Positions 8,755 through 63,679 of a stretch of 64,000 bases of DNA are shown here, piece by piece. The stretch comes from Cristatella mucedo. Its lineage: Eukaryota > Bryozoa > Phylactolaemata > Cristatellidae. A program made the position numbers and the translations under genes. The stretch covers positions 10,411,501 through 10,475,500 of the forward strand of contig WPIO01000004.1 of the NCBI GenBank assembly GCA_009760855.2, in the 5' to 3' direction. The notes below the pieces were generated by a model that did no database searches, was not told the DNA's origin, and saw only the letters and a program-made list of their open reading frames with translations. The first letter of the stretch is position 1. Each line of letters begins with the position of its first letter.

Positions 8755-9860
8755 ACAAACGGGTCGTGGTGGTCCAGCTGAACTCATATATCAAAACTTC
8801 ACACCTTGCTAGTAAGTTCCAGTCTGGCTTTAGAGCTAATCACTCCACAGAGTCAGCATTGCTTAGGGTATACAATACCCTACTTAGGAATGCAGATATT
8901 GGTAGAGTGTCTGCTTGTTTTGCTCGATCTTTCGGCAGCTTTTGATACCATCGATCACAAAGTTCTTCTAGAGCGTCTCTTATCTCGCCTGGGCATCACT
9001 GGCACTGCTCTGCAATGGTTCAGGTCCTATCTCAGTGGGAGACTCCAGAGTATTGGCGTGAATAGACAAAGATCATCCGAGGTACCTCTGAAATATGAGG
9101 TACCTCAGGGCTCCGTGCTAGGTCCGGTTCTTTTCACGGTGTATACTCTCCCTCTTGCTGATGTGATTGCCAAGCACAATCTAGGCATTCACTTCTATGC
9201 GGATGACACTCAGTTGTACCTTTGCTTTGATCCCTCCAAGCCTTCGAGCACCTCAAATTCTCTCAACTCACTAGCTGCATGTATTGATGACATCCACACA
9301 TGGATGGCAGCAAATTTTCTAAAACTAAACGATAATAAAACTAACTTACTAGTTATGGGCAAACCCAGTGTGATTCAGAGATTGGAAAGGCTGACGCTCA
9401 AAATTGGCTCTGCCAGCATATCTCCTGCTGAATGAGCTCGAAATCTAGGTGTCATATTCCAAAGTGACCTCTCGTTAGACGACCACATCAGCTCCAAAGT
9501 CAAATCTGCCTACTTTCAGCTACATAACATTGCTAAAATTCGGGCTTGTTTAGATAAGGATACCACGTCCAAGTTGGTCCATGCATTCGTGACATCCTGT
9601 CTCGACTTCTGCAACTCACTGCTTGCTGGCCTACCGGCATGTGCGATCAGGCGATTGCAGCTGGTGCAAAACTCTGCAGCTAGGCTTGTCTGTCGTGAGC
9701 GTCGCAGTTGCCACATCACACCACTTCTCTCCGACCTGCACTGGCTACCAGTCAAGCAACGGATTGACTTCAAGGTTTTGTCACTCACTTTTAGGTCACT
9801 TCATTCTTTGGCTCCAGCCTATCTCTCAGATCTACTCCCAAGCATCTCAAGCATCAAACC
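8755..9860 (+). mobile_element. LINE-A: reverse transcriptase fragment, truncated at both ends
   Basis: The frame starts within ORF2 (VVVVQLNSYI, then SKFQSGFRANHSTESALLR), shifts frame near 8.91 kb, and continues LDLSAAFDTIDHKVLLERLL, VPQGSVLGPVLFTVYTLPLA, then the intact catalytic box FYADDTQLYLCF at about 9.2 kb. A TGA at 9433-9435 interrupts it; the same frame then resumes with RNLGVIFQSDLSLDDHIS and runs to LAPAYLSDLLPS before similarity ends near 9.86 kb. One frameshift and one nonsense codon make it a dead copy. The 3' UTR and tail are missing here but are present in other copies. It is of the L2/CR1 style. Confidence 0.9.
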
Positions 9861-10660
9861 AAAAAAGTACTGCCAGCATCTAAGAGCTCTCTTGCATGCC
9901 GTCGCAGGCTATGCAGAGCGAAACTCGAACTCACACTCGGGTCTCAGCAGTCAGCTCCCAATCTTCATCCGACCATTGCCTGTTTCAGCAGATACAAAAT
10001 TGCTGCATCGGTGCAACGGAGCTTAATCTTAATGCCAAGCTGGCGCTGCAGTTGCTACGTGCTCTGCCTCACTATCCCCCACCAAAGACTAAATGCCAAA
10101 CAACACCAGACACGGGGGGTCTACTTCATTGAACAAACCTACATGAACTTAACTCTACAGAGGACGACTCGATCGATATTTTCTTATTTCTCTCTCGATA
10201 CCATGTCCCCTGGCGTGTTTACAACTTTAATTCCGACTGACGGAACAGCTAGATATTTTTTAAGGAGTGACCTGCGTCAGGCACCATCTTTTCAGTTCAT
10301 CAGCATGCTACAGAAAACTAGTTCAAGGCATTCACTCAGAGCTTGAGAGGGAAAGTCTTAGCTGAACCTTGCGAATGAAATCTCAGCCCGAGCATCAGGG
10401 TTTTCTTAACTATTAGCGACTTAGCAGTCGTGAGATAGCGGCGATAGCTCAGATGAAAACCGGACGCCAAGCTAATGACAGGTAGCTATCTGCTCCTCTT
10501 AGTTGCTGGTGCCGACGAGTTGCCCAATGGCAATTCCGAGTGCTGAAGTCACATAAAGTCTCGAAATAACTGCTAGTTGCCTCGGGCACTCAATTCATCC
10601 ACATGCCAGCCACAGCATCAGCTAAGACACATCCACTTCTACATGCAAACAAGTTGCCAC

Positions 10661-12813: not shown

Positions 12814-13506
12814 CTAGTCGTCGTCGATGGAGCGAAGGGTGAGCGTCACCTGCACGCTGCCTTGCACCTTCCTGTAGACGGGCAGGCGCACACTCGCGAG
12901 AGCAAACTCCGGGCTGCCCTCCACTGCCTCAACGACGAACGGCTGCATTATGACTCCCCCCTGGTGCTCACCATCCACGGCCGCGCTCCGCCGGCCGCGG
13001 TGAGCGAGCGCGCCGGCCAGCGGCTGCGCTGACTCGTCGGGCGACAGCATCGCCAAGCAGCCGTTGGTCATCTGGTCGAGGTCGCCGTCGCCAGCCTCTT
13101 CCGCGGAGAGGTCTCCGCCGCCGGCGACGACGATCGACGATGCAGCCGCATCGGACGCGTCCTCCATAGGCTCATGTGCCGGCCCTGCGCAATCGTCGTC
13201 CACCGCCGCGTCCCGCATTGGGGCGGCCGCGTGCTTGACCACCTGGTGCGTGCGCAGGTTGCACAAAGTGCGGCACTTGAAGCCGCACCGGTCGCACGCG
13301 TACAGCTTGTAGCCGGTGGCACCGGCATGCATGACCGTGTACCCGTTACTACTGCCACTGCCGACGGCCGATGGCACTGCCATAGCACCGTGACTAGCAC
13401 GGATGTGCGACTGACAGAGAAACTTGTTGACGAACTGCTTGCTGCAGTACGGGCAGCGAGCTCGCTGGTGGCGGCGCGGCAAGGCCGCAGCTACACCGGG
13501 CGGATG
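12814..13506 (-). CDS. Zinc-finger gene, last coding exon 7 (fingers 9-10, C-terminus)
   Basis: 693 bases including stop TAG (12814-12816). Acceptor cctgttttctttttttttag. Fingers are RCPYCSKQFVNKFLCQSHIRASH and YACDRCGFKCRTLCNLRTHQ.VKH. An acidic tail follows (DAAVDDDCAG, then EEAGDGDLDQ), ending RSIDDD. In finger 10 the CxxCGFK core resembles that of finger 7 (CxxCDYK). Confidence 0.88.
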   Translation of the reverse strand, partial: HPPGVAAALPRRHQRARCPYCSKQFVNKFLCQSHIRASHGAMAVPSAVGSGSSNGYTVMHAGATGYKLYACDRCGFKCRTLCNLRTHQVVKHAAAPMRDAAVDDDCAGPAHEPMEDASDAAASSIVVAGGGDLSAEEAGDGDLDQMTNGCLAMLSPDESAQPLAGALAHRGRRSAAVDGEHQGGVIMQPFVVEAVEGSPEFALASVRLPVYRKVQGSVQVTLTLRSIDDD

Positions 13507-13571
13507 CTAAAAAAAAAGAAAACAGGCAACTGTCGGCCACGTGGAGCAGTGACAACCCTAACAGAGCGATC

Positions 13572-13656
<85 letters not shown>

Positions 13657-16600
13657 AGAGAGAGATGACACCACCGGCTACAGTGCATGCGACGAGGCCA
13701 GTGCTAACGGCGGGAATCCGCCTGAAAACTAAGCGCGAGCCACTAAGGAGGACACAACAACAGCACACTGGGAGCACACTGTTTTGCCGATACAGCTTGG
13801 AATCGGCTAGCCCAGTAGCAGAAATACATAAAACGTAAGTCAAAAAAAAACGTAGCACCGATTTCCCCGAATACGATCCACCCGGGTGATCACATCTGAA
13901 CGTAGTGCTCCGCACATGTGAAGGCACACCTACACATGCACAGTGATATTTTAGCTTACGAGACCTGCTGCAGAGAGCCTTCTGCACTTGCTAGATTTCC
14001 GGGAGCCTCTCTCTCCCTCCCTTCCTCTCTCTCTCTCTCTTTTACAAACTAAAGCACTGCACACCAATGTACAGTGCTGACACAAACACTGACTGCACCC
14101 CGGGAGTCAACACAAATCTTAAAACATTGCAGTACTTTACAAAAATCAAAGCGAAAGAGTACTACCACAAGATGACTAACTTGTTTGGCCGTTTCCACTG
14201 AGTTTGAAAACAGAGAAGCTTATTCAATAGCCTCATTTATGGAAGGTTGGCTTATTCAAGAGCCTCGTTGATAGGGGCAGAAGAGCCTCAGTGGCTATTA
14301 CGGCCTCTCAAAGTCGGCAATAAAGGATTGCCTACTGCATGACTCGAATCCACGACCTGGGCCGTGAAGAGTGAGCACCTTACGGGCTAACAATTGAGAT
14401 TTTTGAAGGATAACTTTTGGTGGCACTATCAGAACGAGGTGTAAGAAGACCTTTTGGATGCGCCACGTGCCCCACCCCCCTCAAATGCGCCGTCGGACAC
14501 GGGCTTCGTCAAGAATGGTCAAGGTTTAGGACATCCAATTTTTTGCATGCGTGGACAAAGGCCAGACCTGGTTCGAAACTAGGTACGAAATCGATAGGGC
14601 AGCTAGGGCGAGAAACCAACCGTTTCTTCTTCTAAGCCTCCAGATGAAAAAACGAGCTTCGGAACCGTATACAACTGCTTTAGAAGTCTTGGCAAACACC
14701 AGAGACACCATAGAATGATGATCTGTATATATTGAAGTGTTACTATTTAGATTACGAGGTTTTTAATCAAATTTTTAATCAAGTAGATACACTTGGCAAC
14801 CTGAGACTTAAAAAACCTAGCAGCAATAATAATAATAATAACACATCTGAAAAAGCGCCCTCAGAGAACTCAATTTCTTTCTAAACACTTTAGATTTGCT
14901 GCAAGGGAAGCACAATTGAATGGTTAGTGGTGGAATGCTCAATAAACAATAGTAACATGGTTAGTGGCAGCATGCACAGTGTCATCGCGCTTAAGAACGT
15001 GGAGTCCTGACCAATCAGCACGACGAACCACATGGACCCACTAAATGCTGCTATAAATAGGTACGTTTTTAGTTTCTTTTTAAAAGTGGTCATATCAGGA
15101 GATGTCGTGACACAAGTAGGGAGTGAGTTCCAGGCCTTGGGAGCTTACAGACAAAAAGCACGGTCTCCAAAGGATTTGAAGTTTGCACGAGGTTTAGGCA
15201 AACAGTTAAATTCCGAAAAGCTAGTGGTACTATGCTTAGCCTGGTGGCACAGTAGATTTGATAGGTAGGCTGAAGCCAAAGAATAAAGGGACCTGCAAGT
15301 GAGTGACAAAACCTTGAAGTCAATTGCTTGACTGGGAGCCAGTGCAGGTAGGCGAGAAGTGGTGTGATGTGGCAACTGCGACACTCACGACAGACAAGCC
15401 TAGCTGCAGAGTTTTGCACCAGCTATAAGCACCTGATTGCACATGCCATTAGGCCAGCAAGCAGTGAGTTACAGAAGTCACGAGCAAATGTCGGGAATGC
15501 ATGGACCAATATAGATGTGGTTTCCCTGTCGAAACAAGCCCGAATTTTAGCAATGTTATGTAGCTGAAAGTAGGGCAGACTTGACTGTGAAGCTGATGGG
15601 GTCGTCTAATGAGAGATCATTTTGGAACATGATACATAGATTTCGTGCAGATTCAACAGGAAATATGCTGGCAGAGCCGATTTTGAGCATTAGCCTTTCC
15701 AATTTCTGAATCACACTTGGTGTGCCCATAACTAAGTTAGTTTTATCATCACTCAATTTTAAAAATTTGCTGCCATTCATGTGCAGATGTAAGTTATTCA
15801 AAATAATTCTCTAGTTCCTTGTTTATCAGGAAACATGGTTGGGCAGTATTCCTTTCTACCGCATCCTCAATTTCCTGCATCATTCCGAATCATGTAAGGC
15901 CTACGGTTGTGCATGCTAAAAATAGCATGCTTCAAACCCTTGATGATTGCTGAGAAAACGCCCCACATGGCTGGGAAGATCCATTTTTGAGGATACTTGG
16001 TGACGGTAAATCTTATTTTAAAACGCCCAATTCTTCGAAAATGGGAGATTATGTTGGGTGAAGTTATTGTCTTGGCTCACAGGAATTGCAAAAGTTCTTG
16101 TGCCAGCATTGCGTACATCTTTTGATTCTGAACTTTAACAAGTTAATCTTATTGCATGTGAGTTTAACTACATTTGCTCCATCATAGAAAATCGGGGCAA
16201 CATCAGATGGCATCACGTGACCTCTAAAACACAGCATACATCGGTCTCAATTTATCGTGAACAATGGTGTTGATTTAAAAACGAATGGAACGGATATTGC
16301 ATCAATTAAGACCAGACTTCCTGTAGGCAAGCATGTGGCTATCGAGACTAGTTATCGAATTACCGCAAAAGGTCAACAAAGTATTTAGTCGGTCACCCAT
16401 TTGTTCTTAACGAGTGCCCTTAAACATTTGGGAATTTCATGCTTTCTGTATTACAGCCAGGGTAATTCTATCACCTGAAAAGACACTACACTACTACTAC
16501 TCGAAAAGAGCTACGGTCTCCACAGGATGCTGCCTGTCGATCCGCTGACAAGAGAGGATTTCCTCCTTCCTTTTTTCAGATTTATGCGATGGTCACTTTC

Positions 16601-19600
16601 GCCAAGTCTCCTCGGTGTAAGGGTAGGGGAGCAAGCTAAACACTGCTGACGTTCTCGGCCAGGCAAGCACAGATCGAGCTCCACTCAACCAGTGACCGAC
16701 CTACTGCAGGCAGGAGACATGGCAGGCAGGCAAACAGGCAGAACTGGGCAGCACGAAGGTGGGCTTAACTCGGCATCCGTGCAGGCCTCCAGCCTCCACT
16801 ACTTGCAACTAGCGTGTCCACCATGGCAACAGTGCTGCCGCAGCACGCACGGCAGCGCAAGCAGTACACGACGACCGGCCGGCAGCAGAGTGGGAGGCGG
16901 AGGCGGCGGGAGCGCTGCTTACCGTGCTGGCCACGATCACAGAGCCGCCGCTTCCGGCGCTGTTGTGGTAGTCGGCCATGTGGCGCATGAGCGAGTGCTC
17001 GTAGCTGAACGTGCGCAGGCAGACGGTGCACGTGAACGGCGTGGCGCCGCTCCCTCGAGCGCTCGCGCTGCCGCCGCCATGCTTGCGCTGCTCGTGCGAG
17101 TAGATGTTGGACAGCCACGGAGTCTTGTAGTCACATCGCGAGCAGCTGTACAACTTCTCGCCGGCGGCGGCGGACGGGCCACCGCCAGCGGCGGCCCGTC
17201 CGCCGCCTCGGCTTTTCCATTGGAACTTCTGCATCCCTAGCAGAGCGGCGTAAGGCAGAGTGCCGCTGCCGCCCTGGGTGAGCTAGAGAATGGCGAGAAG
17301 AAAGAGAAGACAGTCGCAAATGAGCGAGCGATAAATAACCGAGACGACACAGTGTCACAAGAATACGACAAGCACCAACCCACACCAGCCAATAAGGCTG
17401 AAGGGGGAATAATGCGAAGCAACACACACGAGGGCTGGCAGGGCGTGGGCTGTCGAGGGCACGAAGCAGCACGCGCACACACCTTCTGCTCCTCCGCCGT
17501 CGAGCCCTGAACGACTGTGCCACCGTCGCTGAGCAACAGCGGCACGCCATTGCTCGGTTCGCAAACGTGCGACATGGCGGTCTGCAAGTCGCTGAACTCC
17601 GTTCCGCACGAGCTGCAGACGCCAGCTTCGACCTTCACTCCCTGAATGGCCAGATGGGCTGCTGCGGCAGCAGCAGAGAAGGCAGCAGACCTGCCACCAC
17701 TGCTGCTGCCTAGGTCAGCCGGCGCTACCGGCTTAGGCGCCACGGTATCGCCGGCGCCAGCTTCCTCCGGCGACGTGCCCTCGCCACAGCTGACGTCGGT
17801 CGCCGTGCTGCTGCCACTCCGCTCGGACGACTGAAACCGCTCGGACGACTGAAACCGCTCAGCCTCGGCATCTCCAGAATTGGAGCACGATTCGTTTGCT
17901 CGCTCGCCGCCGGGCTCTCGGCTTGAGGCCGACAGACCGCTGGCATAGGCCATGTGGACCTGTGGACTTCCGCCTAGGCCATAAGGTGAAATGGTGACTG
18001 CAGTGGGTGCGGCTTCGCCGCCGTCGAGCGATGCGCTGATGCCGTGCTTCTTCAGCTTATGCGTCCGCAGGAAGTACTTGTTGCACAGCTCCTTGTTGCA
18101 GATGTCGCAGTACACGCGTGTCTGGTTGGCGTGCTCTTTCCAACGCCACTGCTTGTACTCGGTGACAACGGTGCCGTCGGCATTGACGCCGCCACTGCCT
18201 CCGGGCCGAAGAGCAGGCCCAAAGCCGACAGGGAACGGCAGGCCAGCGGCGCAGGCGATGTCGGGAACGCCGTGTGCCGGCTCGAACACGGCTGACTTGT
18301 CGGCCAAGTGTGATGTCTGCTTGTGAGCTTTCAGTGCGTGGAAACTGGTGAAGCTTTTCTGACATTGGTCACAGTTTACCGAAGCCTCCTCGGTGATTGA
18401 ATCTGCAAACCCACACACGGGCGCGCCGCTCGTAAAAAGGAGGAGCAGATATATTCGCCGTCTACAAATTAAGTTCCGGAAAACCGACCCTACCTTTTGC
18501 ATCAAATGACACTAGTTCCGGCGGAACCATTGATGGCAACAGCAGGGACACTTTGCTGCCCTCGACTCCGTCTGTAGAGCCAGCTCCAGCGGTTGCCATG
18601 GCAGCAGCGGCAGCAGAGGCACCGGGTCCGTGGTAAGACAAGGCAACGACAGTAGGCGGGACGTTGCCACTGGAAGACTGCGGACCGGGCCAGGCGGCAC
18701 CATCGGCTGGCCCGTGGCCTTGGGCCACGTGGGCCAGTGGCGCCGAGCCAGCATCGCCCATAGCGCCGCAGGGCTGGGCTAGCAAGGCTCCGCGGACGCG
18801 ACCCGACGATGCAGTCTCGAAAGGCAGATGACCGTGTCTCGGTGTCGAAGGACCCGACCAAACTTCGGCTGAAGGCGGCAGGTACGCGCCAGCTGCCATG
18901 CTTCCGCCAACGGCAGGGCCACGCTACAAAAGATCGGTCGGTGATAAATGCTGAGCTGCTCACATCACGAGCGGAAAAGCATGTGGTGTGGAGTAATTAT
19001 ATTGACAACAGTAATAACGATAACAGCACAACAATAGTAACACGCCTGCATAGCCCCCCATTAAAACTGGTTCTTTCTGACAACATTGCATAAGACTGCA
19101 AAGAAGCATGCCAACTGATTACTGTTAACATGCCCAATTTCAGCAAGCTTAAGGAAACACGAGACATTAAATAGTGAGACTGGGCAAATGTTGCACAGAA
19201 TGGGCAGGTTTTCTGTTTCCTAGAAATGTCGGTTCAGGTGATGCTGTGATGTCAGTCGGTAGCGAATTCCAGGCTTCGTGAGCATGCAAACTGAAGGTGT
19301 GGTCTCCAAAGGATTTCTGAGGTTCGCTAGAGGCACAGCTAGACGGCTTGAGCCGTTTGATGACCAGGGTGTGCATACGATGCGGAGCCTGCACTGGGTG
19401 CATTTGGGAAAACTAGGCAAGAGCAAGAGGATGAAGAGACCGAACGAAGTGAGTGGCAGAACCTAAGAGGCGATGCGCTCACTGCTTGATGAGGAGCCTC
19501 GAGTACGCATTCCGGAAGTCGGCATTCTGCAGCAGTTGCCAGCCCAGTTCACGACAGAGAGCCAGGTATGCAGGCGTCTTATCGTACGGGCAGGAAGGGA

Positions 19601-22600
19601 GGTATAGAGGAACGTGGCCAGGTTGTCTAAGACGCTCGGACTATCTACCTAGGCGGTGGTAACCTTATCTAAGCTAGCCAGAATGCTCATTGCCATGTTA
19701 CACGGCTGAAAGTCGGCCGACTTGGACACGTGGAGCGATGGGGGACACCTAGCGAGTGGCCATTTTAACTCCAAATACAGGCTACGTGAGATAAACTGGC
19801 CGAGCAAACTATGACGGGCTTTACTTTTCGAGTGACAAAAAAGACGCTTTTGGAAAGCAGCCTAGGGCAGCAGACGGCAGCGCTAGGGGAGGTGCTCCTG
19901 GACTTGCAGCAGCTTCTCGAGGCTGCCGCCGTGCGGACAGCCGTCGACTTCGGTGCCGCTCGCAGAACGAACGTGGCAGCACGCAATGGACGGCAGCACG
20001 GCACAGCCCCCTCCCCCATGGCACATCGCCGCCTGCCACAGTTTCGTCGCACACCGACCGCTTCCGTTTCCCTCGTGGCACCGGCCGAGCGACTAGCCAG
20101 CCTCACTGGAGACACCTCAAAATGTTAGCACGAGTTTTGGGCAGCATTCTCGTCAAGTCTACAAGTACCAGACACAACAAAGCCGGAGTCACTTAACCAA
20201 ACACAGCCACACAGACTAGACTGCCGCTACGCTCGAGAGCACTCAGAGCCTGACTTCCTTGGTGAGTGAGATCGAGGCCAGAGCGACTGTCTCCTTCGGT
20301 TCACGAAACCAGGAAAAAGCAATATGAAGCGACACCGACCGAGTCTGGAAGCGCTGCACAGAAGCGACAGTGCAGGACAGCACTCAGAAAGGCAGCGCTA
20401 GCAGCAGAAGCGATGCGATCGCTGAGAGAGCTTTGTGACAATCTTTAGGCGGAAGAACCGGTGGCTGGTTGGCTCGTAGATTGGCTGCTAGGACGGACCT
20501 AGACGCCCCTCATTCATGGATCATCGAAGCCTGGCCTCTTCAGACCGATAATTTGTGGCTACGCTTCGACTGCCGTGAGGCACAGGCGCTCGGCTGAAAC
20601 TGCAGACACAAGCATGAAGCAGATGACAGCTACGCAGTTATGCACAACCAATCGCTCGATCGAACACTATCCAGGTAGTGTGTGCGTGTGGCCCGGAGGC
20701 TGCAAAATTACAATAACCCAACTCTGCAGCTGCTTCAACTACTACCCGGTTGCGTAAACATCCTCCTCGAAGTAAGACTGGAGCTTTTGGGTAACAAAAG
20801 AGTAGTATTTACGATGCCAGGCATGCTTCTGTTATTTGCTGCTTGTGAAAATATTTATTGACAGCCCAAAAACATACACCCACAGGTAGGTGACGTCACC
20901 TACGATGACTATTAACTTGCTTACATGGCAAAGATTAGAGGCCACAGGCTTCTGTGCTGTCTCGGCTGCTAGAGCACATTACAGAGAACTGATATCAGCT
21001 CTCTGGAATTAATTTCTCTTGGAATTACTCTGGCCAATAAGCCACCACCACAGCAGCCACCTTGGCCTTATCGCCCCATCAACGTTATATGGGGTTCAGA
21101 TCAGGCGTCTGGCTGGGCCACTTCATCACACCAGATTCGTCGAAAAACTACTATACTCAAGCTATTGGTCAAGCAAGTCGGATTTCCAACCTTAAATTTC
21201 TGCTTCGTGCGTGGTCACATTGAGCAGCAAGTTACCGACCCTAAGCTACACTGCCAGGCCACCACAGCACAGCACTTGCTGACGAATCCTTGTGCGGTTC
21301 AGATACAGTGGCACAGCCAGCTGCCAGATTTGAACCCCACAGAACGACTGTGGAGCGATTTCGGCAGGCGGCTGAGGCATGGTGTTCAGCCTACACCAGT
21401 AGCCGACCTTTTCAGTAACTCAGGCACAACAGGAATGTGCCATGGCAGAAGAGACAACACGGGCTCTGATGGCCTCTATGCCTATCCAAACAATGGTCGG
21501 CAGAAAGACGTCACACTACATAGCCATACATACCAGCAGCATGCTTTTTTTTGGGCTGCCAATAAATATTTTCACTAGCATGGCATTGTAGAAAATCCTC
21601 TTAGGCTGCAGCAGCTGTAGCCATATTGCCAGGATTAATTTAACTAGTATAACATAATTATTTGTATAGCACCATAAGAGAACCTAATCTCTATTCAAGC
21701 ACTTCAAATATGTCACGGGGCTCGAGCCCACGACTTTGGTGAGCAAATACATTCACCTTGACCTTGGTTCGAAAAGAGCACCTTAACCACTGGGCCAAAC
21801 CAGAGCGGCATTATTTTGCAACTGTGTACACACTAGAGTGGTCAATAGGAAACCACGCTACCAGTCTCGAGTACATGAGCCAAGTGTCTGGGCGGTTGAA
21901 CCGACAGCAGGCATTCGAAGCTTTACAGCAATGCACCCATTGCGTATGGCACTCGGCTAGTGATGAAGGAAGACAGCACGACCCGACGGAGTCGCCGTGA
22001 GCCCTTGCCACATCACTTCCGCGCAGAATGTCACCGGGAGCCTGTCACTACGGCAGCCCGACGCAGCTGGCGAGTCACGGGTCTAGGACTAAACGGAAGT
22101 CGTCTACGCTGCACGTCCACAGGCCCACGGCGCCGTGCTGCAGCTGGCCTGCCCACCCACAGCATCAGCCCAGCACGGTGGTTCACAGGTGGGCAGATAG
22201 GTGGCACAGGCACCGGTGGGTCGACACCACCTGCGCAGAATCTATAGTGCGCTATTATTTTTGTGCCAAATTCTCGACGCTGACTAAGAGCACGCCTCCT
22301 CAGCCAGGTCGCAGGAGTTCAGCTGCTCATGAAGGAGCCCGCCTGCGCTCAACTGCAACCGAGGAACGGGACGTGGACACGTCGCCGATAGCACACTATT
22401 GCGGTCGGTCGGCTTCAGCGTCATCAGCATGAACGTCAGTTGCAACCGCCTCACTAACCCTCCGACTGCTTGGGCTTCGCACTGGTCCACGTGTCCGTGT
22501 CAGCATCGCTGCCCTCGGCAGCACTGCCGCCTAGCCGCCCCGCGACAGGGTACCTCTGGCAACGCGACTGCGCACGCGCAAGAAATGCCTCACAAAAATT

Positions 22601-25600
22601 CTTGCAATGGCCAAGTCCTAAACTGCCACGGTGGGAGGGTGGGTGGTTGGTGGCAGCGGCACCACCCACAGGCCACGACAGGGCAGCACGACGCGGATCC
22701 GCAAAAAGGCCAAAGGCCAAACATGGGGGCAGCGAAGGGTCGCGTCATCGGCAGGTTGGAGGGGGGAGGTTCGCTCTCGCGCATACCTTGTACACAGCGA
22801 CATACCTTGTACACAGCGACCGAGTCGCCGCCGGCTCGCTCGCTCCTCACACCAGCCGCTTCGGCGAGGGAGCTTGAAAGGCCAGCTCTGCTCACGGGCA
22901 GAGGTACGCCAATGGCGGAGCCGGCAGCGGCGGCTGCCGCGGCAGCAGCAGCCAGGTCACGGGCGTACACGCCGTGTGCGCTGGCTCTGTGGATCTTGAC
23001 GGCGTGCATGCTGGAGAATTTGCGGGTGCACATGTTGCACCCGACTAGGCAGTCCGTGTCCGACGTCACGAGCTCGGACAGCAATGAGCCATGCACCGCT
23101 GCTGCTGCGGCGGCAGCCACAGCGGCAGAAGGAACACTGTGCGACAGCCCGGCAGCATCGAGCGATGCACGCGGCGATGGCTGCATGGCGTCGGCAGCCG
23201 CGGCCTGGTACGCGGCGCCGGGCGCGAGGGGTGAAGCTGCTGTGGCGACGCCGTGCACGTGCAGCTTGTGCCTCTTGATGTAGTACTTGTTGCGGAACGG
23301 TTTCTGACAAATGTCGCAGATGTCACCACCGCTGCTGATGACACCCGAGTACATCTCTTTGCTGATGCCGCCCGCGCTCGAAGCAGCGACCGCACCGGCC
23401 ACGGGGGCTGCGATCGGCGAGACGGCAGCGGCGGCCGTCGCCGCCACGACCGCCGCGGCTCCAGCACCGGTGCGATCCGAGATGTGACCAGGCGGAGAGG
23501 CGTCCTTGGACGCCGAGGCGCCCACGCCGTCGTGGACGCCGTGAATGTTGGCTTTGTGGGTCTTCAGGAAGTACTTGTTGCAGAACTCGCGCTGGCATAT
23601 CTCGCAGTACGCCTCCGGATGGAAGATACCGGCCGCTGCCGGCAGCACTGCGCCGCCCTCGCCTCTGCTGCCCCCGTCGTCGGTCGACACGTCCATCATG
23701 CCGTGCTCCTCGTCGTGCCCACCGTCGGCGGCGTGCGTGGCGTGGTCCTCGGAGGAGGCGGCGTGCTGCACGAGCAGTTCGCTCGCCAGCCGATGGTACG
23801 CGGTGGGAAAGTCGCCCGACGCATCGGGCTGCTGCCCCGCTGCCTCGGCTCTGCAACGCAGCAACGGCGGCGCCACGAGTGGGCGTGCGTCGGCAGGACG
23901 ACGACGGCGCACGTGCGCTACGCCGCGCTCGGGCACAGGCCGAGATTCGACAGACACGAGGGATGCGCACGGCACAGGCTTCGGCCATCTCGCAGGGACA
24001 CTGCGCCAGCGCGGTTCGACCGAACAGAAATGCCGGCAGAGGGTCCGGCGCTCGGCTGGCTGCGACAATCATTCCTGACGATGCAAGCAAAAGACGACGA
24101 ACGGCACAGCCTAGCCAGTCTCGGCATTCGTCGTGTCCTCGCTAGCGACTTTGGTAACCCTTTGTCTGTTTTCGCTACTAGCCGGTCCAACCTTCGCGAC
24201 CAGCCTAAGAGGTTTGCACACAGCAAGTGCACAACTCGGTAGCAAGGTGCGCCCGTGCCTGACGTGAGCGACCAAACCGCCACATGAAGCCACTTCTCAT
24301 CAATCTGCACTGGCTAACCATCAAGCAGCGAGACGACTTACGAGTCCCTTCATTCTCTTGTGCCCATCTGCATGACATTTTTGCTAGTCAAACCTACCGT
24401 TGCGCCACCTGCTCCCATGACTCGGATCGGTGTGCGTCGAACCAAGTTCAAATCGCTCGGAGACCGTGTTTCCGTTCGCATGCTCCCATAGGCTGGAATT
24501 CACTCCCGACTGACATCCCGTCATCTGATTTGACAAACGACACTTGAAAAGAAGCTAGAAAACCTAGCCTTTGAGCTGCACGAACCATCCTTTGCGTGCT
24601 TGTGCGCTCTGACACCGTGCAGTGCTATAACAAACCAGTTGCCATTCTTAGTTTCAGCACACATAAAGTGCCCAGAAAAGAGATTCTGTTTCCTTGGGAT
24701 GCATGTCATTATTATTATTATCATTATTATTATCGGTAACTCCCTCTGGCTAGCAAATGCTAAGCGTTCCTAAGCTACCTGAAAGGCTCCACGACCACGG
24801 CCACCAAGTTACTGTTACGCAGCTCTCATTATCCATAGCCGACAAAAGATGCAGCCGTGGTTGTGCAACACCAGGAAGGCTACAAGCCTTCTCTATCTCT
24901 TCCCCCACCGGGAGGTGATCTGCCTGATTTCCTTTCCATATGACATCTCAAACGATTGCATCAGGGGCTCTAAATGTCAACTGGCATTTCAAAAGAAGCT
25001 TGACACTTGGCGATGGCATGAGTGGGCCTCATTGCGACGTTAGCCCATCTACCACCTACCTTCTTATTGACCCAACCAACAACTGCCTCTTTGTTTGGAG
25101 GGGATTCAAAACAAAGCAGTTACAGGAGTGCACGGGACCATCCAGCTGGCCACAGCAAGCTAAGGTAGCAAACCTGTCCAGCTTATTATTATTATTATTA
25201 TTATAATACAGCCTTGTGAATAATAACAACAATAGCCCATTTGCATAGTAACACACTTATTACAACCAGATCTCTGGCACTATGCACTTAGACAAGCAGC
25301 ACAGGAAGCATTATCAACTGACTAGTGATAATCTGATGTGCATACATTGCAGCATGCACATGTGCAAAGCAGTGCGATTCACATGGATGAAGTGTGAGCA
25401 GCCAGGTGAGGTGAATGCTGCACTGCAGACAGGACAGCTTCAGCGCAGCACAATGCAAAATGAGCAGAGCTGACTCTCGGGTAGATGGAGGAGGAGGAGG
25501 AAGGGGACATGGAGGCAGTGCAGGATGACCGGATGCTCTGGTTTCAGAGCCAATAGGCAGTCTTGCTTTGGTGGGTAACTTGGCAAGCATCTTCGATGCT

Positions 25601-27540
25601 GTCTTTTGCTACCTCAATGAAGCCGCGCCACACATCAGACTAATGAGTAACCTATGTCCATTCGGTGGATGAGCCATTGTGCATTATTCATCGCTCACGC
25701 AGGCCGGGCGGTGGGCTCAAGCTTCGGACGCTTACTTCAGGTGAACACAGCGTTCGTGCCGCTCCAGCGACTGCCTTGTGCCGAAGCCCAGGCCGCAGAG
25801 ATGACAGGCAAAGCCTGGCTGGGGCGCTCGGTCAATTGGATCGTGGGTCGCCGGCACTTCGGAGGCGACGCCATCCACGTCATCGTCGTCCTCGTGCTGT
25901 GCAGACGTCTGCGGCAGCTTGGCGTCGAGCTCCTGCGAGAGGAAGCCACGAGGCAGAAGATGACGATTCTGCGCCTGAAGCTCATCGAGGCCTTAGCAAG
26001 GGTGGCGGCGGGGGAAGGCATCGCGGCCCTCTGCAGCCGCTTCCGAAGCCTGAGCAGCCTGCCAGTTGCATGTCGTGCATTCGATGATAAGGCATGTAAC
26101 ATAGCAAGGCTGCGAACAATGTAGCGGAGGCAACACAAGTTGGGAGGTGAGCACGGTTTGACTAGCTAAGATGGGTGCAGTTTGACTAGCAAAGGTGGGT
26201 GCGGTTTGGCTAGTAAACCTGTGGCAAGTAGAACAAGGCTAAAACCATAAGCCAGAAATGAGGCAGACCGATCAGGCAATGGAAGCAGGCATCTGAAGTC
26301 ACTTAGCGGCGAGCAAGCATGACGAAACGAGTGATGCCATAGCCAAGAGGGCAAGCCATCACCCAGCCTTAAATTTAAAAAAGGGCCCAGCTAATCCAGC
26401 AGGCTGCTGACACCACTCCTGCAGATCAGCCAAGTGACCAGGGAGTAGCATAGCAAACCAAGTCTTAGGCTTGTGTCTACAGTTCAATTGGAAGCAATAA
26501 CGATTGCTTTTAAAGCACGATGCATGGCTCAAACACAGATTTTCTGTGACGAGATTCAAATGCTATTGAGCCGGTTAGAGACCTTTGGCACTGACCACTG
26601 AGTGTATAGCATTAGGATATTGTACGGCAAAAAATAAGACTAGCTCCAGTGCGTCTCACAGATTGATCGCCTTCCAGGCCGTTTCCAAGTTATCACCCGG
26701 GTTCCACAGCAAGCCTAACATGAGTGAAATATTAGCATCGGCCTGCCTCCAATCTTCCAATTTATTTTGGCTATCACTCCTGATTACAACGGGGGGGGGG
26801 GAGAGGAGGAGGAGGAGCAGGAGGAAAAATAAGGAAATGAATGCTGCAGATGTCACGGCCCAGCAGGCGGGTGCCTTGATTAGGGGGCAGGTTGGCTCAC
26901 AGGTTCAAATCACTTTCTCAGCAATTTCTCCGGCCCGACTGAAGCTAATGTGAGGGAAGGAACCCCACATCGATAACCAATGCACCACCACATTTCTACA
27001 GCCGGCTGACACAAGCCAGATTGGCAGAGCCTTGCACTAAAAGGCCACTGCAGCTAGCTAGCTCCTGCTCCACGTTAAAACACATGCTGAAGTGTCACAG
27101 TCAAACGCGATCAGGGTGATGCATAGATAAGTGCAGTACATTTGGGGGTCACCGCACAATCATTCAGTACAGTCAATGGCTCGCTAAAATTTCAACTACC
27201 CACGATACTACTCTACAAAGGACAGTCATAAAATGCACGGTCAGACAATGAATAGAATTCCGGCCGCTTTGATAGCACTTCATTGTCTGCGAGCAGCTGC
27301 AGACATCGCGACACGCAGCAAAGTCTGGGTGGAGTTACTTCATATTCAAACTTACAACAAAAAGGCTTGTGTTTACCGGCTAACAGGGTAGCTGCATGCC
27401 TTCCTCTTTCATTCGAGGGTGCGGCAGCAGCCCCGACCGATCCGACGAACCAATTTCCGCTAGCGGCATTTACAGAAACTGCAATTTGCTTCGGGAGCGA
27501 TTTTCGAGCGAATCAGGCTCTGCCAGTTATCGCAGGATTC

Positions 27541-27613
<73 letters not shown>

Positions 27614-28532
27614 CCCTCTTCCACCCCCCCCAAAGCAGCACCACATTGTCCACCGTGTCATGCAGCCTATGCAAGTCTTCAGCAGTCCTTATAACTGGCA
27701 GGGCAGCGGGAACAAGGATTGCAGCATCTCACGAGAAGACGTCATGATCAACCACACGGCGTCCGAAGGCCATTGGGCTGCCGCTGCAGTTTTGCTAAAG
27801 CTTGAGGGAGGGTTGAGGAGGCCGACGACTGTACAGATCTGCTTCTAGTCAAGCAGTAGAGCTCAAAAGGTGGCTTAGCCTGCAAGCAAATTCCAAAGGC
27901 AGCACTGAATAGGCCACTTAAACCACACAAATTCTTTGCTAATCAAACACGGCCCTCTGCAGACAGATAAAGCCCAATTTTGTTATAGCTCTTAACCAGG
28001 GTACTCGACAAAGCACAGGAAACGAAGCTGGCCACATTCACCGACCACAGAGAGGTGGGTGGGGGCCAAACCACCCGAAGCAGCAGCAAACCGGCTCACT
28101 TTATGTTGCAAAAGAAAGCTAAGCACCCGGCACTCCCACTCAAAGGAACGGCAAAACTCGTGTGCCTGCACACACTAGTATACAAATGCACAGCCGATGA
28201 CATACAACATGCACACATATGCCGGCATGTGTGAGCACGAATGCTATTCAGGCACGTTGTAATGGACGACGTTGCTGCACGGAGAGCTGGCACTTCAGGC
28301 AGGCTCTTTCTGACCACTGCTGCTGCTGCTTCCAGCGGCAGCAGGAGCCGGCAGGTCGGTCGTAGCTTTTTACCTTGGACTCGGTCAGCAGTGGCCTGTG
28401 CTGGCCTCCACCAGCAGCAGGCGGTGACAGGTCGACCAGGCTGACACGGTTTGGCTTCGATTGCTTCCGGCGGCTTCCCTTTGTTGGGTCCATGACCTTG
28501 GAAGTTTCCTCATCAAGCCGCATGATTACCAT
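12814..28532 (-). CDS. Ten-finger C2H2 zinc-finger protein with NuRD-recruiting N-terminus (seven coding exons)
   Basis: Model: complement of 12814-13506, 16923-17273, 17483-18402, 18494-18923, 22806-23850, 25736-25932 and 28374-28532. The total is 3795 bases, 1264 residues plus stop TAG. All six junctions are GT-AG and all phases agree (from the 5' end: 0, 2, 0, 1, 0, 0). N-terminal SRRKQSKP (residues 20-27) matches the SALL/BCL11/FOG motif known to bind RBBP4/7 of NuRD. C2H2 fingers lie at about 94-117, 200-223, 297-318, 390-411, 621-642, 709-730, 961-982, 999-1020, 1052-1073 and 1105-1126, plus a CxxC...HxC half finger at 873-891. Fingers are mostly single, set in Ala/Gly/Ser-rich linkers. 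Several share the unusual core NKYFLKTHK..HG. Inferred role: nuclear DNA-binding repressor. It has no SAL-box finger pairs, so it is not simply spalt; I cannot name the orthologue. Start: first ATG after an in-frame TAG; Met14 is an alternative. Confidence 0.85.
13575..13652 (+). repeat. (GA)n microsatellite close to a splice acceptor
   Basis: About 39 GA units, which are (CU)n in the zinc-finger transcript, ending 68 bases upstream of the exon 7 acceptor. Confidence 0.97.
14225..14400 (-). mobile_element. SINE-B copy
   Basis: On the minus strand: GTTAGCCCGTAAGGTGCTCAC, GGCCCAGGTCGTGGATTCGAGTC (box B), CAATCCTTTATTGCCGACTTT, then GAGGCTCTT and a TTGAATAAGCCAAC-like end. It has the same block order as the copies at 35.9, 38.8, 49.1 and 60.1 kb. 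Confidence 0.75.
14825..15800 (-). mobile_element. LINE-A copy, 3' end with RT C-terminus, in intron 6
   Basis: The minus strand matches the 9.3-9.85 kb and 30.7-31.2 kb copies: MGTPSVIQKLERLMLKIGSASI, RNLCIMFQNDLSLDD, NSAARLVCRECRSCHI, HWLPVKQ, then the 3' UTR and the terminal hairpin sequence with an ATT tail. 5'-truncated just after the FYADD box; the frame is broken in several places. Confidence 0.88.
16923..17273 (-). CDS. Zinc-finger gene, coding exon 6 (fingers 7-8)
   Basis: 351 bases, phase 0 at both ends, acceptor ttctctagctcacccag and donor ACG|gtaagc. Fingers YSCSRCDYKTPWLSNIYSHE..KH and FTCTVCLRTFSYEHSLMRHMADYH lie 16 residues apart. An alternative acceptor (gctctgctag) would shorten the exon by about 36 bases. 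Confidence 0.85.
17483..18402 (-). CDS. Zinc-finger gene, coding exon 5 (fingers 5-6 and half finger)
   Basis: 920 bases, acceptor gtgtgtgggtttgcag and donor CAGAAG|gtgtgt. Finger 5 is NCDQCQKSFTSFHALKAHKQTSH; finger 6 is YCDICNKELCNKYFLRTHKL.KH. A later CSSCGTEFSDLQTAMSHVC has the spacing of a finger that lacks its last histidine (C2HC-like). An 18-bp in-frame duplication at 17821-17856 encodes ERFQSS twice. Confidence 0.85.
17821..17856 (-). repeat. In-frame 18-bp tandem duplication in exon 5
   Basis: GCTCGGACGACTGAAACC occurs twice in perfect tandem, adding one extra ERFQSS hexapeptide to a Ser-rich linker. It keeps the frame and is likely length-variable between individuals. Confidence 0.9.
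18494..18923 (-). CDS. Zinc-finger gene, coding exon 4 (linker, no finger)
   Basis: 430 bases, acceptor atcttttgtag and donor AAAAG|gtaggg. It encodes a Gly/Ala/Ser/Pro-rich segment without a finger (RGPAVGGSMAAGAYLPPS ... VPPELVSFDAK). Entry in phase 0 and exit in phase 1 agree with donor 1 of exon 3 and with exon 5. It is separated from exon 5 by a 91-base intron. Confidence 0.75.
19195..19570 (-). mobile_element. LINE-A relic, C-terminal part of ORF2
   Basis: The minus-strand translation SFGDHTFSLHAHEAWNSLPTDITASPE matches the LINE-A C-terminal SFGDRAFSSYAPTAWNSLPT region, with frame breaks. The 3' UTR is not preserved. Confidence 0.65.
21060..21130 (-). pseudogene. Tc1 transposase C-terminal fragment, left arm
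   Basis: The minus-strand frame reads GVMKWPSQTPDLNPI and then a stop. PSQSPDLNPIE is the signature around the third catalytic acid of Tc1 transposases. No intact gene. Confidence 0.75.
21165..21578 (+). pseudogene. Tc1 transposase C-terminal fragment, right arm
   Basis: Open for 137 codons. It contains TAQHLLTNP, VQIQWHSQLPDLNPTERLWSDFGRRLR and a terminal NNGRQ segment, in the order expected for the last third of a Tc1 transposase (normal length about 340). The catalytic glutamate in PDLNPxE is kept. Confidence 0.75.
21655..21802 (-). mobile_element. SINE-A copy with internal insertion
   Basis: Complete from head (TGGTTTGGCCCAGTGGTTAAGGTGCTC) to tail (GAATAGAGATTAGGTTCTCTTATGGTGCTATACAAATAATTATG). 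The middle holds about 20 extra bases relative to the 57.9 kb copy. Lies in intron 3. Confidence 0.88.
22782..22819 (-). promoter_or_regulatory. Tandemly duplicated 5' splice site
   Basis: TCGCTGTGTACAAGGTATG occurs twice in perfect tandem (22801-22819, then 22782-22800 on the minus strand). Each copy holds AAG|GTATG. Donor 1 ends the exon at 22806 in phase 0, donor 2 at 22787 in phase 1. Exon 4 begins in phase 0 and exon 5 in phase 1, so donor 1 suits inclusion of exon 4 and donor 2 suits skipping it. Confidence 0.8.
22806..23850 (-). CDS. Zinc-finger gene, coding exon 3 (fingers 2-4)
   Basis: 1045 bases after acceptor ttgctgcgttgcag. It encodes three isolated fingers: CEICQREFCNKYFLKTHKANIH, CDICQKPFRNKYYIKRHKLHVH in outline, and CNMCTRKFSSMHAVKIHRAS.H, separated by Ala-rich linkers with runs of nine or more Ala. 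The end is one of two donors 19 bases apart; the upstream one (exon end 22806, phase 0) fits exon 4. Confidence 0.85.
23851..25735 (-). other. Intron 2 of the zinc-finger gene
   Basis: 1885 bases, donor gtaagc, acceptor ttgcag. Contains a LINE-A copy. At 24.8-25.2 kb an unassigned stretch ends in a TTA run (about 25187-25206), which hints at another retroposed copy, but no matching body was found. Confidence 0.65.
24281..24734 (+). mobile_element. LINE-A 3' end in intron 2
   Basis: Plus strand: PLLINLHWLTIKQRDDLRV, then a frame-broken WNSLPTDI segment, a short 3' UTR, AAAGTGCCCAGAAAAGAGATTCTGT and an ATT-rich tail. It lies antisense to the zinc-finger gene. Confidence 0.75.
25736..25932 (-). 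CDS. Zinc-finger gene, coding exon 2 (finger 1)
   Basis: 197 bases after a strong acceptor (cttctgcctcgtggcttcctctcgcag) and before donor gtaagc. It encodes an acidic stretch (EDDDDVDG) and finger 1, FACHLCGLGFGTRQSLERHE..VH. A TAA lies in frame upstream of the acceptor, which fixes the exon border. It ends with two bases of a Lys codon, completed by the first base of exon 3. Confidence 0.8.
26156..26227 (+). repeat. Three-copy tandem repeat, unit 24 bp
   Basis: GTTTGACTAGCTAAGATGGGTGCA, GTTTGACTAGCAAAGGTGGGTGCG and GTTTGGCTAGTAAACCTGTGGC follow one another. The third unit is the most diverged. Confidence 0.8.
27543..27611 (+). repeat. (CT)n microsatellite in intron 1
   Basis: About 34 CT units followed by C runs. 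Confidence 0.97.
28374..28532 (-). CDS. Zinc-finger gene, coding exon 1 (NuRD motif)
   Basis: 53 codons, ending TCC AAG|gtaaaa (phase 0). Three in-frame ATGs at 28532, 28523 and 28493 lie before SRRKQSKP; the ATG at 28493 puts the motif close to the N-terminus, as in SALL and BCL11 proteins. An in-frame TAG lies just upstream of the first ATG, so the coding region does not extend further in this exon. The rest is a polar Pro/Gly segment. The 5' UTR continues to the right; ctcttctgcag ending at 28616 is a possible acceptor for it. Confidence 0.75.
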
Positions 28533-30720
28533 AGCCTAGTCAGGCTCTCTCTCCTCCCAGTCCTGCCGACTTCGGCACCGACGACTTAGCAGCACGGGGA
28601 GGTCGGCGGCAGAGGCTGCAGAAGAGAGGCGCCAGACTGCTACTCAGCAAAAAGGTGGCACAGTGCTCACAGAGACACCTCACCGCCCGACGAAGCGCCC
28701 GACGAAGCGTGCGACAAACGACCGCAGCGCTGAAGCGCCACGTGCTCTCGACTCTTCCAGCTAGCAGCAGCCTGGTGTTTGCAAACGAGTCCAAAAGAAA
28801 AGACGAAAACGGACGATGCACTCCTTTCACCCGACCAGACAACCGTGGGGTGGGTGGGTGGTAGGCTCATCGAGTCACGAGGATGCTGTGCCGAGCTATT
28901 AATGCATGCAACACAATTTGCCGGCTTGCTCACTGCCCTACCTGCACATCAAAGCCCCAAACCGATGATGGCCACAAGCTGATAAAAGTGTGAAGAGAGC
29001 CTCCCCCCTGAGAGCAGTAAAATAAAAAGGCTAGCGCATCGGCACGACCGAGAAGCCAGTCAAGAGGTGACAGAGGTGCCGGTCGAAGCAACCGAGGTGC
29101 TGCCGACATGGCAGCCAGCCAGCGGCCGCAGGTTGGGCGGCCGGCAGCAGCGCTGCCAGAGCCGCTGCTTCCGGCACCTGCAGCGCTGCATGCACCTACG
29201 TAGGCAGGCACGCAGTGGCCATACCAAACTCACGACAGGCACTCGGCCACCTGAGAGACCGGATGTGCCACTATAGAACAACCGGGCTGGGCAGCACAGA
29301 AAAAGATAGACAAAACCAACAAGAACCGTGAGTCAAAGCTGCCGACACCGCCCTGCCCTCAATCGGACTCGGTCTGGCCCATCAGGCTGCTTGCGAACGT
29401 CTCCCGTCAGGCTGCAACGGGCCTCTGCACCCGATGCCTGCCTGCACCGGCTGCCACCACGTGACATGGAAGGGAGCAGCGGCCCGGCAGAGCAGCCAGA
29501 GAAGGTGCAGCCCGAGTCGGTCGCGCGACGCGAGCTCTGGGCTCCGACTGGTGAGCGTTGCTAAAACATAACTGCCGGGACAAGGTAGTGACAGGTGCCA
29601 GATGGCAAGCAAACGAAATGGGAGTGAAGAAAGCTTCTATAGAGCCGCTTGCCATGTGTCTCAAGAAATGGGAAAAAGTTGTCAACGACGACCATTGGGT
29701 GATCTTCTCTCCTCCTGCTGCCACGACACAGGCAGTGAAGCAAGCCTTTCCGGCCGGCCTGCACAGCTACTTCTGTGCTACTGCCTCGAATGTCAGTCCT
29801 ACTCGGCAACGCTTCTCACTTTCCCTTGTCACACAGGACTCTCTCGGCAATACGCTTGGGCCTTAGGGCATTATTACCAGAACACATAGATAACCGATAA
29901 ACCCAATCAAATGCAAGCTACATTCGAGTCACACACACGGCATTGTGTACGAAAACACCCATGGACATCAGCACGAAGTACAAAGTACTAGAACGTTCTA
30001 GAGTCTAGTTTCGGTTGAAAGTTCTAGAACGGCACACTAACAAGCCAAGACACATGTGAGATGCAGCTGCCACTAGGCAACCGCTTAACTGCAGAAGTGG
30101 CAAAAAACCAACAACGTGCGGGCATTACTTGAAAGAACAAAAGAACCGGCACACTGTAAGCAAGCATGTAAAGCCAGCGCAAAACAAGGTGAGTCACAGA
30201 CTTTTCCCAGCAGCTTCACCCTACTGGTAGTCACAAATCAGGGATAACAGAGCCCCCCCAGAGCATCTCTAGAAGAATATGTCGCTCGTGGAATGAGGAA
30301 CTGCTCTGGCCAAAGTGGGGGCACGATTGTTCTATCGGCCTGCAGGCAGGCCATGACCACAGCTCGGCTCACTGTAAGGTCTAGCTAGCTGCGAGGTTCG
30401 AAAATGAGGACCAGCTTTTTTGACAAATGGCACTAGACCTAGCTGTCAGACAGCCTAGAATCCAACAGTGCCGGTGCTGTACCGAACTGTCGTCGATGTG
30501 CTGCACCTACTAGCAGCAACAGCTGGTATACGACTACAAAACTTAAAAGTTATACGATCGACATGCGATCGATCCATGATAGATAAATTCCTCAACGGAG
30601 CACCAGCAACACTGACGTCGACAGACCAGTTTCGGCCCAGCGGCCTCCCAAAATAAGTCAGCTTATAAGCAGCACCTAAGTAAGGGGAACCAATTAAATC
30701 CTGCCGTTTCACACTAGTCA
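28533..30720. other. Upstream flank of the zinc-finger gene
   Basis: 28.53-28.85 kb is moderately GC-rich and probably 5' UTR. 29.0-29.6 kb is GC-rich with short frames on both strands but no domain. 29.6-30.72 kb shows nothing recognisable. Confidence 0.4.
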
Positions 30721-30722
30721 AA

Positions 30723-31187
30723 CCTCCAGCCTATCTTTCAGAGATACTACCCCATCAGGCAAAGCATCGTACCACTCGCTTTTCGGAATCCAACAGTCTA
30801 GAAATACCTCGTACAAACCTTAAATCCTTTGGAGACCGTGCATTTAGCTCGTATGCTCCCACAGCCTGGAACTCCCTCCCGACCTGCATCAGAACATCCC
30901 CTGACCTGACCACATTTAAAAGAAACTTAAAAACATACCTATTTAGGACAGCATTTAGTGGGTCCTTGTGATTTGTCCTCGATGTGCTTATGCGTGCTGA
31001 CACTGTTCATGCTGCCACTAACCACATTTGCATGCTGACCCAGTGCATGTAACCCCTAACCATGTTATTCATTTTGTTTGTTTTTCAAGCATGATTTTAC
31101 TTACTATTCTATTGCGTATCACTTTGCAGCAAATGTAAAGCGCCTAGAAAGAGATTAAGTTCTCTGAGGGCGCTTTATCAAGTGCAA

Positions 31188-62746: not shown

Positions 62747-63679
62747 ACCACTAGTTATGGGCAAACCAAGTGTGATTCAGAAATTGGAAAATGTAATGCT
62801 CAAATCAGCTCTGCGAGCATATGTTCTTTTGCATCGGTACGAAATCTAGGTGTCCTGCTACAGCATGACCTTTCATTAGACGACCACATTAGCTCCACAG
62901 TCGTCTGCCTACTTTCAGCTACATAGCATTGCATAAATACAGGCTTGCTTAAACAGAGTTACTGCATCTAAATTGGTCCATACATGTGTAACATTCCATC
63001 TCGACTTTTGTAACTCACTACTTGCTGGTCTACCGGCCTATGCACTCAGGGGCTTACAGCTGGTGCGTAACTCTGCAGCTAAGCTTGTATTTTGTGAGCG
63101 TAGTAGTTGCCACACTATGCCACTTCTTGCCAACTTGCCCTGGCTTTTAGTCAAGCAACGCATCGACTTCAAAGTTCTGTCACTCTCTTTTACGTCCATT
63201 CGGCTCCAGCCTACCTATCAGATCTACTCCCTCACTAGGCTAGGCATCGTGCAACCTGCTTTCTTGAATCAAATCATTTAGCTACACCTCGTGCGAACCT
63301 CAACTCCTTTCGAGACTTATACCTTTAGTTCGCATGCTCCCAAGCCTGGAACTCACTTCCGACTAACGTCACGACATTTCCTGACTTAAAAATATTTAAA
63401 AAGAAGCTCAAATGCATCTATTTATTACACATTTAGTGTGTCCATGTGATTCTTCCTTTGCATGCCTATGCATGCTGACACTGTGAATGCTGCCACTAAA
63501 CCACATTTTTGCATGTTGACCCTGTGCATGTCACCTCTCACCATGCTATGCTTGTTGACATTGAGCATGATACCCCTAACCATTCGATCTAGCTTGCTTT
63601 ACAGCATATGTAACATGGCTAGAAAGAGATTAAGTTCTCTGAGGGTGCTATACAAATGTATTATTATTATTATTATTAT
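62747..63679 (+). mobile_element. LINE-A copy, C-terminal ORF2 plus 3' UTR and tail
   Basis: Starts at LVMGKPSVIQKLE and runs through VRNLGVLLQHDLSLDDHIS, LDFCNSLLAGLPAYALRGLQLVRNSAAKLV, the 3' UTR with GCATGCTGACA words, GGCTAGAAAGAGATTAAGTTCTCTGAGGGTGCTATACAAATGTA and an ATT tail. The frame is broken by indels; 5'-truncated just after the RT catalytic box. It is the longest LINE-A copy with a preserved 3' end besides 14.8-15.8 kb. Confidence 0.9.

Follow-up and report, generated by a model that had tools for sequence, protein, structure and literature searches.

What kind of regulator carries a peptide of the type found in SALL, BCL11, and FOG proteins but distributes its zinc fingers in a different way is the question raised by a gene in a 64,000-nucleotide stretch of the Cristatella mucedo genome (contig WPIO01000004.1, positions 10,411,501 to 10,475,500; here called the window). 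The gene is read on the minus strand from position 28532 down to 12814, and the peptide, SRRKQSKP, is a candidate docking site for RBBP4 and hence for the nucleosome remodelling and deacetylase complex (NuRD). We consider it probable that the gene product is a nuclear co-repressor with zinc fingers, from a small family of which two copies were found in this genome, and that it would serve as a FOG-like NuRD adaptor separate from SALL, BCL11, and FOG. In this model, the internal SRRKQSKPxR would dock on RBBP4/7, and the docked RBBP4/7 would bring the remodelling and deacetylase complex, leading to repression. The scattered single fingers, several of which are aromatic at base-contact positions, would have transcription factors or chromatin proteins as their partners. 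Contact with DNA may be made by a minority of them, and fingers 7 to 10, which lie closer together, could still do so. The reading starts from features observed directly: the gene structure in the DNA, a paralogue, the protein-level conservation of both the peptide and the fingers, and an RBBP4 gene in the same genome.

Exon borders were placed by sequence. The seven coding exons are, in order, 159, 197, 1045, 430, 920, 360, and 693 bases long, GT-AG borders are present at all six introns, and the intron phases are 0, 2, 0, 1, 0, and 0. The open frame extends from a Met codon at 28532 to a stop codon and encodes 1267 amino acids. An earlier sequence-only reading had described seven minus-strand blocks joining in phase into 1264 residues, a description that was borne out, with the smaller number being the count from an in-frame Met at residue 4. 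Coding exon 1 (28374–28532) contributes 53 residues and ends in AAG followed by gtaaaa in phase 0; an in-frame TAG lies two codons 5' of Met1, and a further upstream coding exon may be spliced in just after it. The protein contains ten C2H2 fingers by the pattern C-x2-C-x12-H-x3,4-H, and in a Pfam scan no family other than the generic zf-C2H2 and zf-C2H2_4 exceeded its cut-off. A score of 20.8 bits for PF23225 (ZNF462), against a cut-off of 27, was taken as a generic finger hit. The locus has the appearance of a genuine animal gene of seven exons, which would be joined by splicing. A paralogue on contig C103 keeps the same plan, and the exon with the peptide therefore very likely belongs to the same gene as those with the fingers.

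This paralogue emerged when the 1267-residue protein was compared with the entire 572-Mb genome, all 34 first-look candidates being scored. Thirteen matches were obtained at E values up to 0.01, seven in the window gene and six at the C103 locus. The copy (C103:334618-320852), reconstructed from frames and splice sites, encodes 1615 amino acids in seven exons and has ten fingers. Exon order is as in the window gene, and all six intron phases (0, 2, 0, 1, 0, 0) are identical; the C103 borders were picked in the knowledge of those of the window gene, which makes this agreement partly dependent, but the frames and the GT and AG sites are present in the DNA. Intron 1 spans 2441 bases in the window gene and 2631 in the copy, by their coordinates. 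The first coding exon of the copy, the counterpart of window exon 1, contains GSRRKQSKPSRVS, compared with GSRRKQSKPNRVS in the window gene, and its SRRKQSKP occupies residues 75–82; exon 2 encodes a finger 1 in both. Also common to the two are FPTAYHRLAS, the NKYFL-type fingers, YKQWRWKE, the KLYSCSRCDYKTPWLSN finger, and an LPVYxKV tail, a list of shared features that was defined from this C442/C103 pair itself, C442 being the window contig. One finger differs in each copy: the window finger at residue 390 is unmatched in C103, and C103 has an extra NKYFL finger at residue 716. A zf-CRD match on the paralogue (27.5 bits, slightly over the cut-off of 26.3) was taken as a generic finger hit. 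Searches with the conserved blocks gave no relative in collections of viral and of bacterial or archaeal contigs, as expected for an animal gene, and the 51 sequences matched in PDB are, by name, C2H2 proteins of other families.

The peptide noted in the sequence-only reading does lie on exon 1 (28452–28475, minus strand), but it occupies residues 20–27 rather than the extreme N-terminus. According to the available text of PMC11602157, RBBP4 is bound by two peptide forms, an N-terminal RRKQxxP and an internal RK(x)xxPxK/R, and both RRKQSKPNR of the window protein and RRKQSKPSR of the C103 copy fit each of them. The same text describes in ZNF512B an internal R-R-K-Q-x-x-P-x-K that likewise fits both (R421, R422, K423, Q424, P427, and K429), in which the basic residue two positions after P is essential and which binds RBBP4 over 60-fold more tightly than does the FOG-1 peptide. 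An internal RRKQxxPxK is therefore already known, and among the proteins compared ZNF512B is the closest precedent for the form of the peptide, as far as that text goes. The two proteins differ in that the motif lies at residues 421–429 in ZNF512B and at 21–29 in the window protein, and in that the eight ZNF512B fingers are treated as pairs in PMC11602157, a comparison of layout. For Drosophila Ush-B, a FOG-type peptide mediates NuRD binding (available text of PMC7891773). A 24-residue query around the peptide gave no match in PDB. The putative target is itself encoded in the genome: an RBBP4 gene is present on C122. All 58 residues of one of its exons are identical to an RBBP4 chain in PDB, 9kof_H, and the same stretch matches 2xu7_A (E = 1.6e-38).

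Might the gene nevertheless be an invertebrate zinc-finger gene that has already been named, with its NuRD peptide included? We regard this as a serious possibility, although not the likelier one. The contig collections searched for relatives were viral and bacterial or archaeal, which leaves room for such a gene. On the other side, six NKYFL-type core strings were not found in the literature searched, which is a weak argument given that papers seldom print such strings, and the available text of PMC7891773 names Ush and OAZ as the sole Drosophila proteins with an N-terminal FOG motif, a list that was drawn from N-termini. The part of PMC12513265 that was available makes no mention of NuRD or SALL. 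MEP-1, a NuRD-linked protein with scattered fingers, was considered and provisionally set aside. A tentative suggestion is that the family is a NuRD-adaptor family new to science, one of non-arthropod protostomes that would combine an internal peptide fitting both forms with isolated, aromatic-faced fingers for protein contact, having evolved parallel to SALL, BCL11, and FOG. Two weak indications in the genome are in keeping with a protostome other than an arthropod: Chitin_bind_4 gave no match, although the control genomes likewise gave none, and a piece of mitochondrial COX1 makes sense when ATA is translated as Met and AAA as Lys.

The fingers had been described as isolated and built on an NKYFLKTHK core. 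The scattered layout, unlike the pairs of SALL, held up, but the core describes just three of the ten. Exon 2 (25736–25932) encodes finger 1 (residues 96–117). Exon 3 (22806–23850), which matches exon 3 of the paralogue, contains the conserved FPTAYHRLAS, poly-Ala runs, and fingers 2 to 4 (residues 201, 297, and 390). Exon 4 (18494–18923) is a low-complexity linker with no finger, whereas the extra NKYFL finger of the paralogue lies in its exon 4. Fingers 5 and 6 (residues 621 and 709) are encoded by exon 5 (17483–18402), the latter being of NKYFL type and preceded by YKQWRWKE; a degenerate CxxC...HxC at residues 873–891 of the same exon was left out of the finger count. Exon 6 (16923–17282) encodes fingers 7 and 8 (residues 964 and 1002), with 32 of 33 residues around finger 7 (955–987) being identical to the C103 paralogue. 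Exon 7 (12814–13506) ends the frame with fingers 9 and 10 (residues 1055 and 1108), a partly conserved C-terminal tail (MQPF...LPVYRKV...VTLTLRS), and the stop codon. All seven exons lie on the minus strand.

The core NKY(F/Y)(L/I) is found in the fingers at residues 201, 297, and 709, with a looser NKFLC at 1055, and four of the ten fingers of the C103 copy belong to the same class, one of them as SKYFL. In both copies, position 2 of the helix is Tyr in these fingers, and position 3 is Phe or Tyr. Positions 2 and 3 of the helix are base-reading positions in a C2H2 finger, and aromatic residues there are better suited to protein contacts than to the reading of bases. Because Tyr and Phe or Tyr occupy these positions, the pattern suggests that the NKYFL-type fingers bind protein. 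A less likely but plausible alternative is that the protein is a DNA-binding repressor whose scattered fingers read DNA singly or jointly and whose peptide recruits NuRD as in SALL4. Fingers 7 to 10 are in keeping with it, being nearest to one another (linkers of 16, 31, and 31 residues, compared with 66 to 233 for all others), as are window fingers 1 and 8, which have T/Q/S/R and Y/H/S/R at helix positions –1, 2, 3, and 6. The linkers of 16 to 233 residues nonetheless include none of the short, standard TGEKP kind, and to the aromatic residues of the NKYFL-type fingers is added Leu at both helix positions 2 and 3 in finger 1 of the C103 copy. The proposed adaptor role would make the protein resemble FOG (ZFPM; Ush in Drosophila), which likewise has an SRRKQ-type peptide and scattered protein-binding fingers.

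We judge it improbable that the peptide arose by chance or is a vestige and that the protein works without NuRD. DNA patterns for SRRKQxKP gave 8 matches in the genome, compared with 4 for reversed-pattern controls; all 8 translate to SRRKQxKP, and they comprise the window gene, the C103 copy, BCL11, and five others. Several points do weigh against a docking role. The genome count, at twice that of the control, is not significant alone. No zinc-finger gene was seen at the five other sites within the 20 kb or less that was examined (same-strand frames over 20 kb, by eye, for C111:5245254, C177, C332, and C671, and the frame around the site only for C88). The peptide starts after 19 residues in the window protein and 74 in the C103 copy and is thus internal, whereas the RRKQxxP peptides of FOG-1, SALL1/4, BCL11A, and ZNF827 are all N-terminal in the available text of PMC11602157. 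In addition, the gene model is read from the DNA and the docking predicted from the peptide, and the finger surfaces are likewise read from sequence. With regard to the five sites, the fingers of SALL and BCL11 in this genome lie 25 to 34 kb from the start codon, beyond the stretch examined there, so that a long first intron could hide another peptide-and-finger gene. The likeliest such site is C177 (SRRKQSKPRRI), where the peptide (4925194–4925216) sits in a short open frame and continues with RRI. No frames with fingers were seen over the 20 kb that follow; the site may be a chance match or mark the beginning of a further gene with a long intron.

A chance origin of the window peptide was rejected on account of the C103 paralogue, whose first coding exon also encodes it and whose downstream finger exons are homologous, with identical intron phases. 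Residues 18–32 of exon 1 are identical between the copies at 12 of 15 positions, 6 of these through changed codons, compared with 7 of 17 and 7 of 21 in the two flanks, figures that come from an alignment with large gaps. Over 13 codons of the peptide region, a tiny sample, synonymous divergence (dS) was approximately 1.55 and nonsynonymous divergence (dN) 0.03; the values for 239 codons of conserved blocks were 0.81 and 0.18, with the latter biased low by the choice of blocks by eye for conservation. The peptide therefore looks constrained at the protein level, the same eight residues and the following xRVS having been kept in two diverged copies despite synonymous changes and drifting flanks. 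Divergence at synonymous sites was uneven between the copies: dS was approximately 0.35 to 0.39 in the WRWKE finger and in fingers 7 and 8 (window positions 17483–18402 and 16923–17282), 1.0 to 1.9 in four other chosen blocks, and saturated in one block of 13 codons, all of them small samples. Possible causes are gene conversion, constraint on codons, and an overlapping signal.

The gene had also been proposed to lie outside SALL, BCL11, and FOG, and this was upheld by the finding of those families elsewhere in the genome. The DNA pattern for MxRRKQxxP had 18 genome matches, compared with 8 in controls; of the 18, 8 encode MxRRKQ, whereas the others contain Ser codons, which the pattern likewise permits. 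Four of these 8 sites are upstream of known-family fingers on the same strand, and the other four are without such a sign. Two are SALL loci: on C111, SALL-type fingers at 14349342–14351345 lie downstream of MPRRKQGRP at 14323976, and on C310, such fingers at 46910–45285 lie downstream of MPRRKQDNP at 74974; the SALL query gave 175 matches with 150 of 732 candidates scored, and the finger places on C111 and C310 are the five best. On C657, an exon encoding the BCL-11A CCHC domain (E = 3.5e-13) lies 33 kb downstream of MSRRKQEKPQH. At C419:486686, MSRRKQQNPKPL marks a probable FOG locus, and 9 kb downstream lies the best of 30 matches to a FOG-finger query (E = 8.6e-4). Peptides and fingers at these loci are linked by strand and distance rather than by a spliced gene model, and hand-typed queries were used for SALL and FOG.

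The window protein differs from each family in turn. FOG/ZFPM proteins are defined by C2HC fingers and carry their peptide directly behind Met; the window gene was not among the 30 FOG-finger matches at E values up to 1, and no C2HC finger was found in its protein with a looser pattern permitting a final Cys, the CxxC...HxC at residues 873–891 differing in spacing. SALL (Spalt) proteins are also multi-finger repressors with an RRKQ peptide, but they have CKMCGRAFTTKGNLKTH-type and linked paired fingers, and both SALL loci have MPRRKQ. The window protein has no SALL-type linked pairs, the shortest linker among its ten fingers being 16 residues, and no RRKQ at its extreme N-terminus. BCL11 has a peptide of the MSRRKQxKP type and an early CCHC finger; this finger (PF25491) was unmatched in the window protein at E values up to 0.1 and in the paralogue at E values up to 1. 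Because the loci of these families were found elsewhere, with that of FOG being probable, the window gene is, on present sequence comparisons, separate from them. The shared SRRKQxKP peptide is the one point in favour of its being instead a fast-evolved SALL, BCL11, or FOG member; this is very improbable, given that they have their own loci each with Met-x-RRKQ and that the 1267-residue search, at E values up to 0.01, matched only the window gene and the C103 locus. The genome contains two SALL loci and two copies of the window family, compared with one BCL11 and one probable FOG; an older large-scale duplication behind the paired loci is possible.

In and around the gene are broken pieces resembling the reverse transcriptase of a non-LTR (long terminal repeat) retrotransposon and its tail, of the HITPLL..LHWLPVKQ type, at 8782–10023 (plus strand), 15093–15810 (minus), 30684–30968 (plus), and 62937–63278 (plus). 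Pieces of this sort also occur near the C103 copy and within the RBBP4 locus. Upstream of exon 1, from approximately 28.5 to 64 kb of the window, no other gene was recognised by eye among frames of at least 130 codons, with no family search being made. This stretch contains many GA/CT microsatellites and may be regulatory or the site of 5' non-coding exons.

If binding to RBBP4 holds true, a NuRD-docking peptide would be joined to one more, differently built zinc-finger family, and in an invertebrate. The peptide would be of the internal kind known from human ZNF512B, whose binding to RBBP4 exceeds that of the FOG-1 peptide more than 60-fold in tightness, as given in the available text of PMC11602157. 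Internal NuRD motifs may have escaped notice, given that the available text of PMC7891773 lists only Ush and OAZ, both for N-terminal motifs. The two diverged copies in C. mucedo, with the same peptide and different flanks, provide a natural test of which residues matter.

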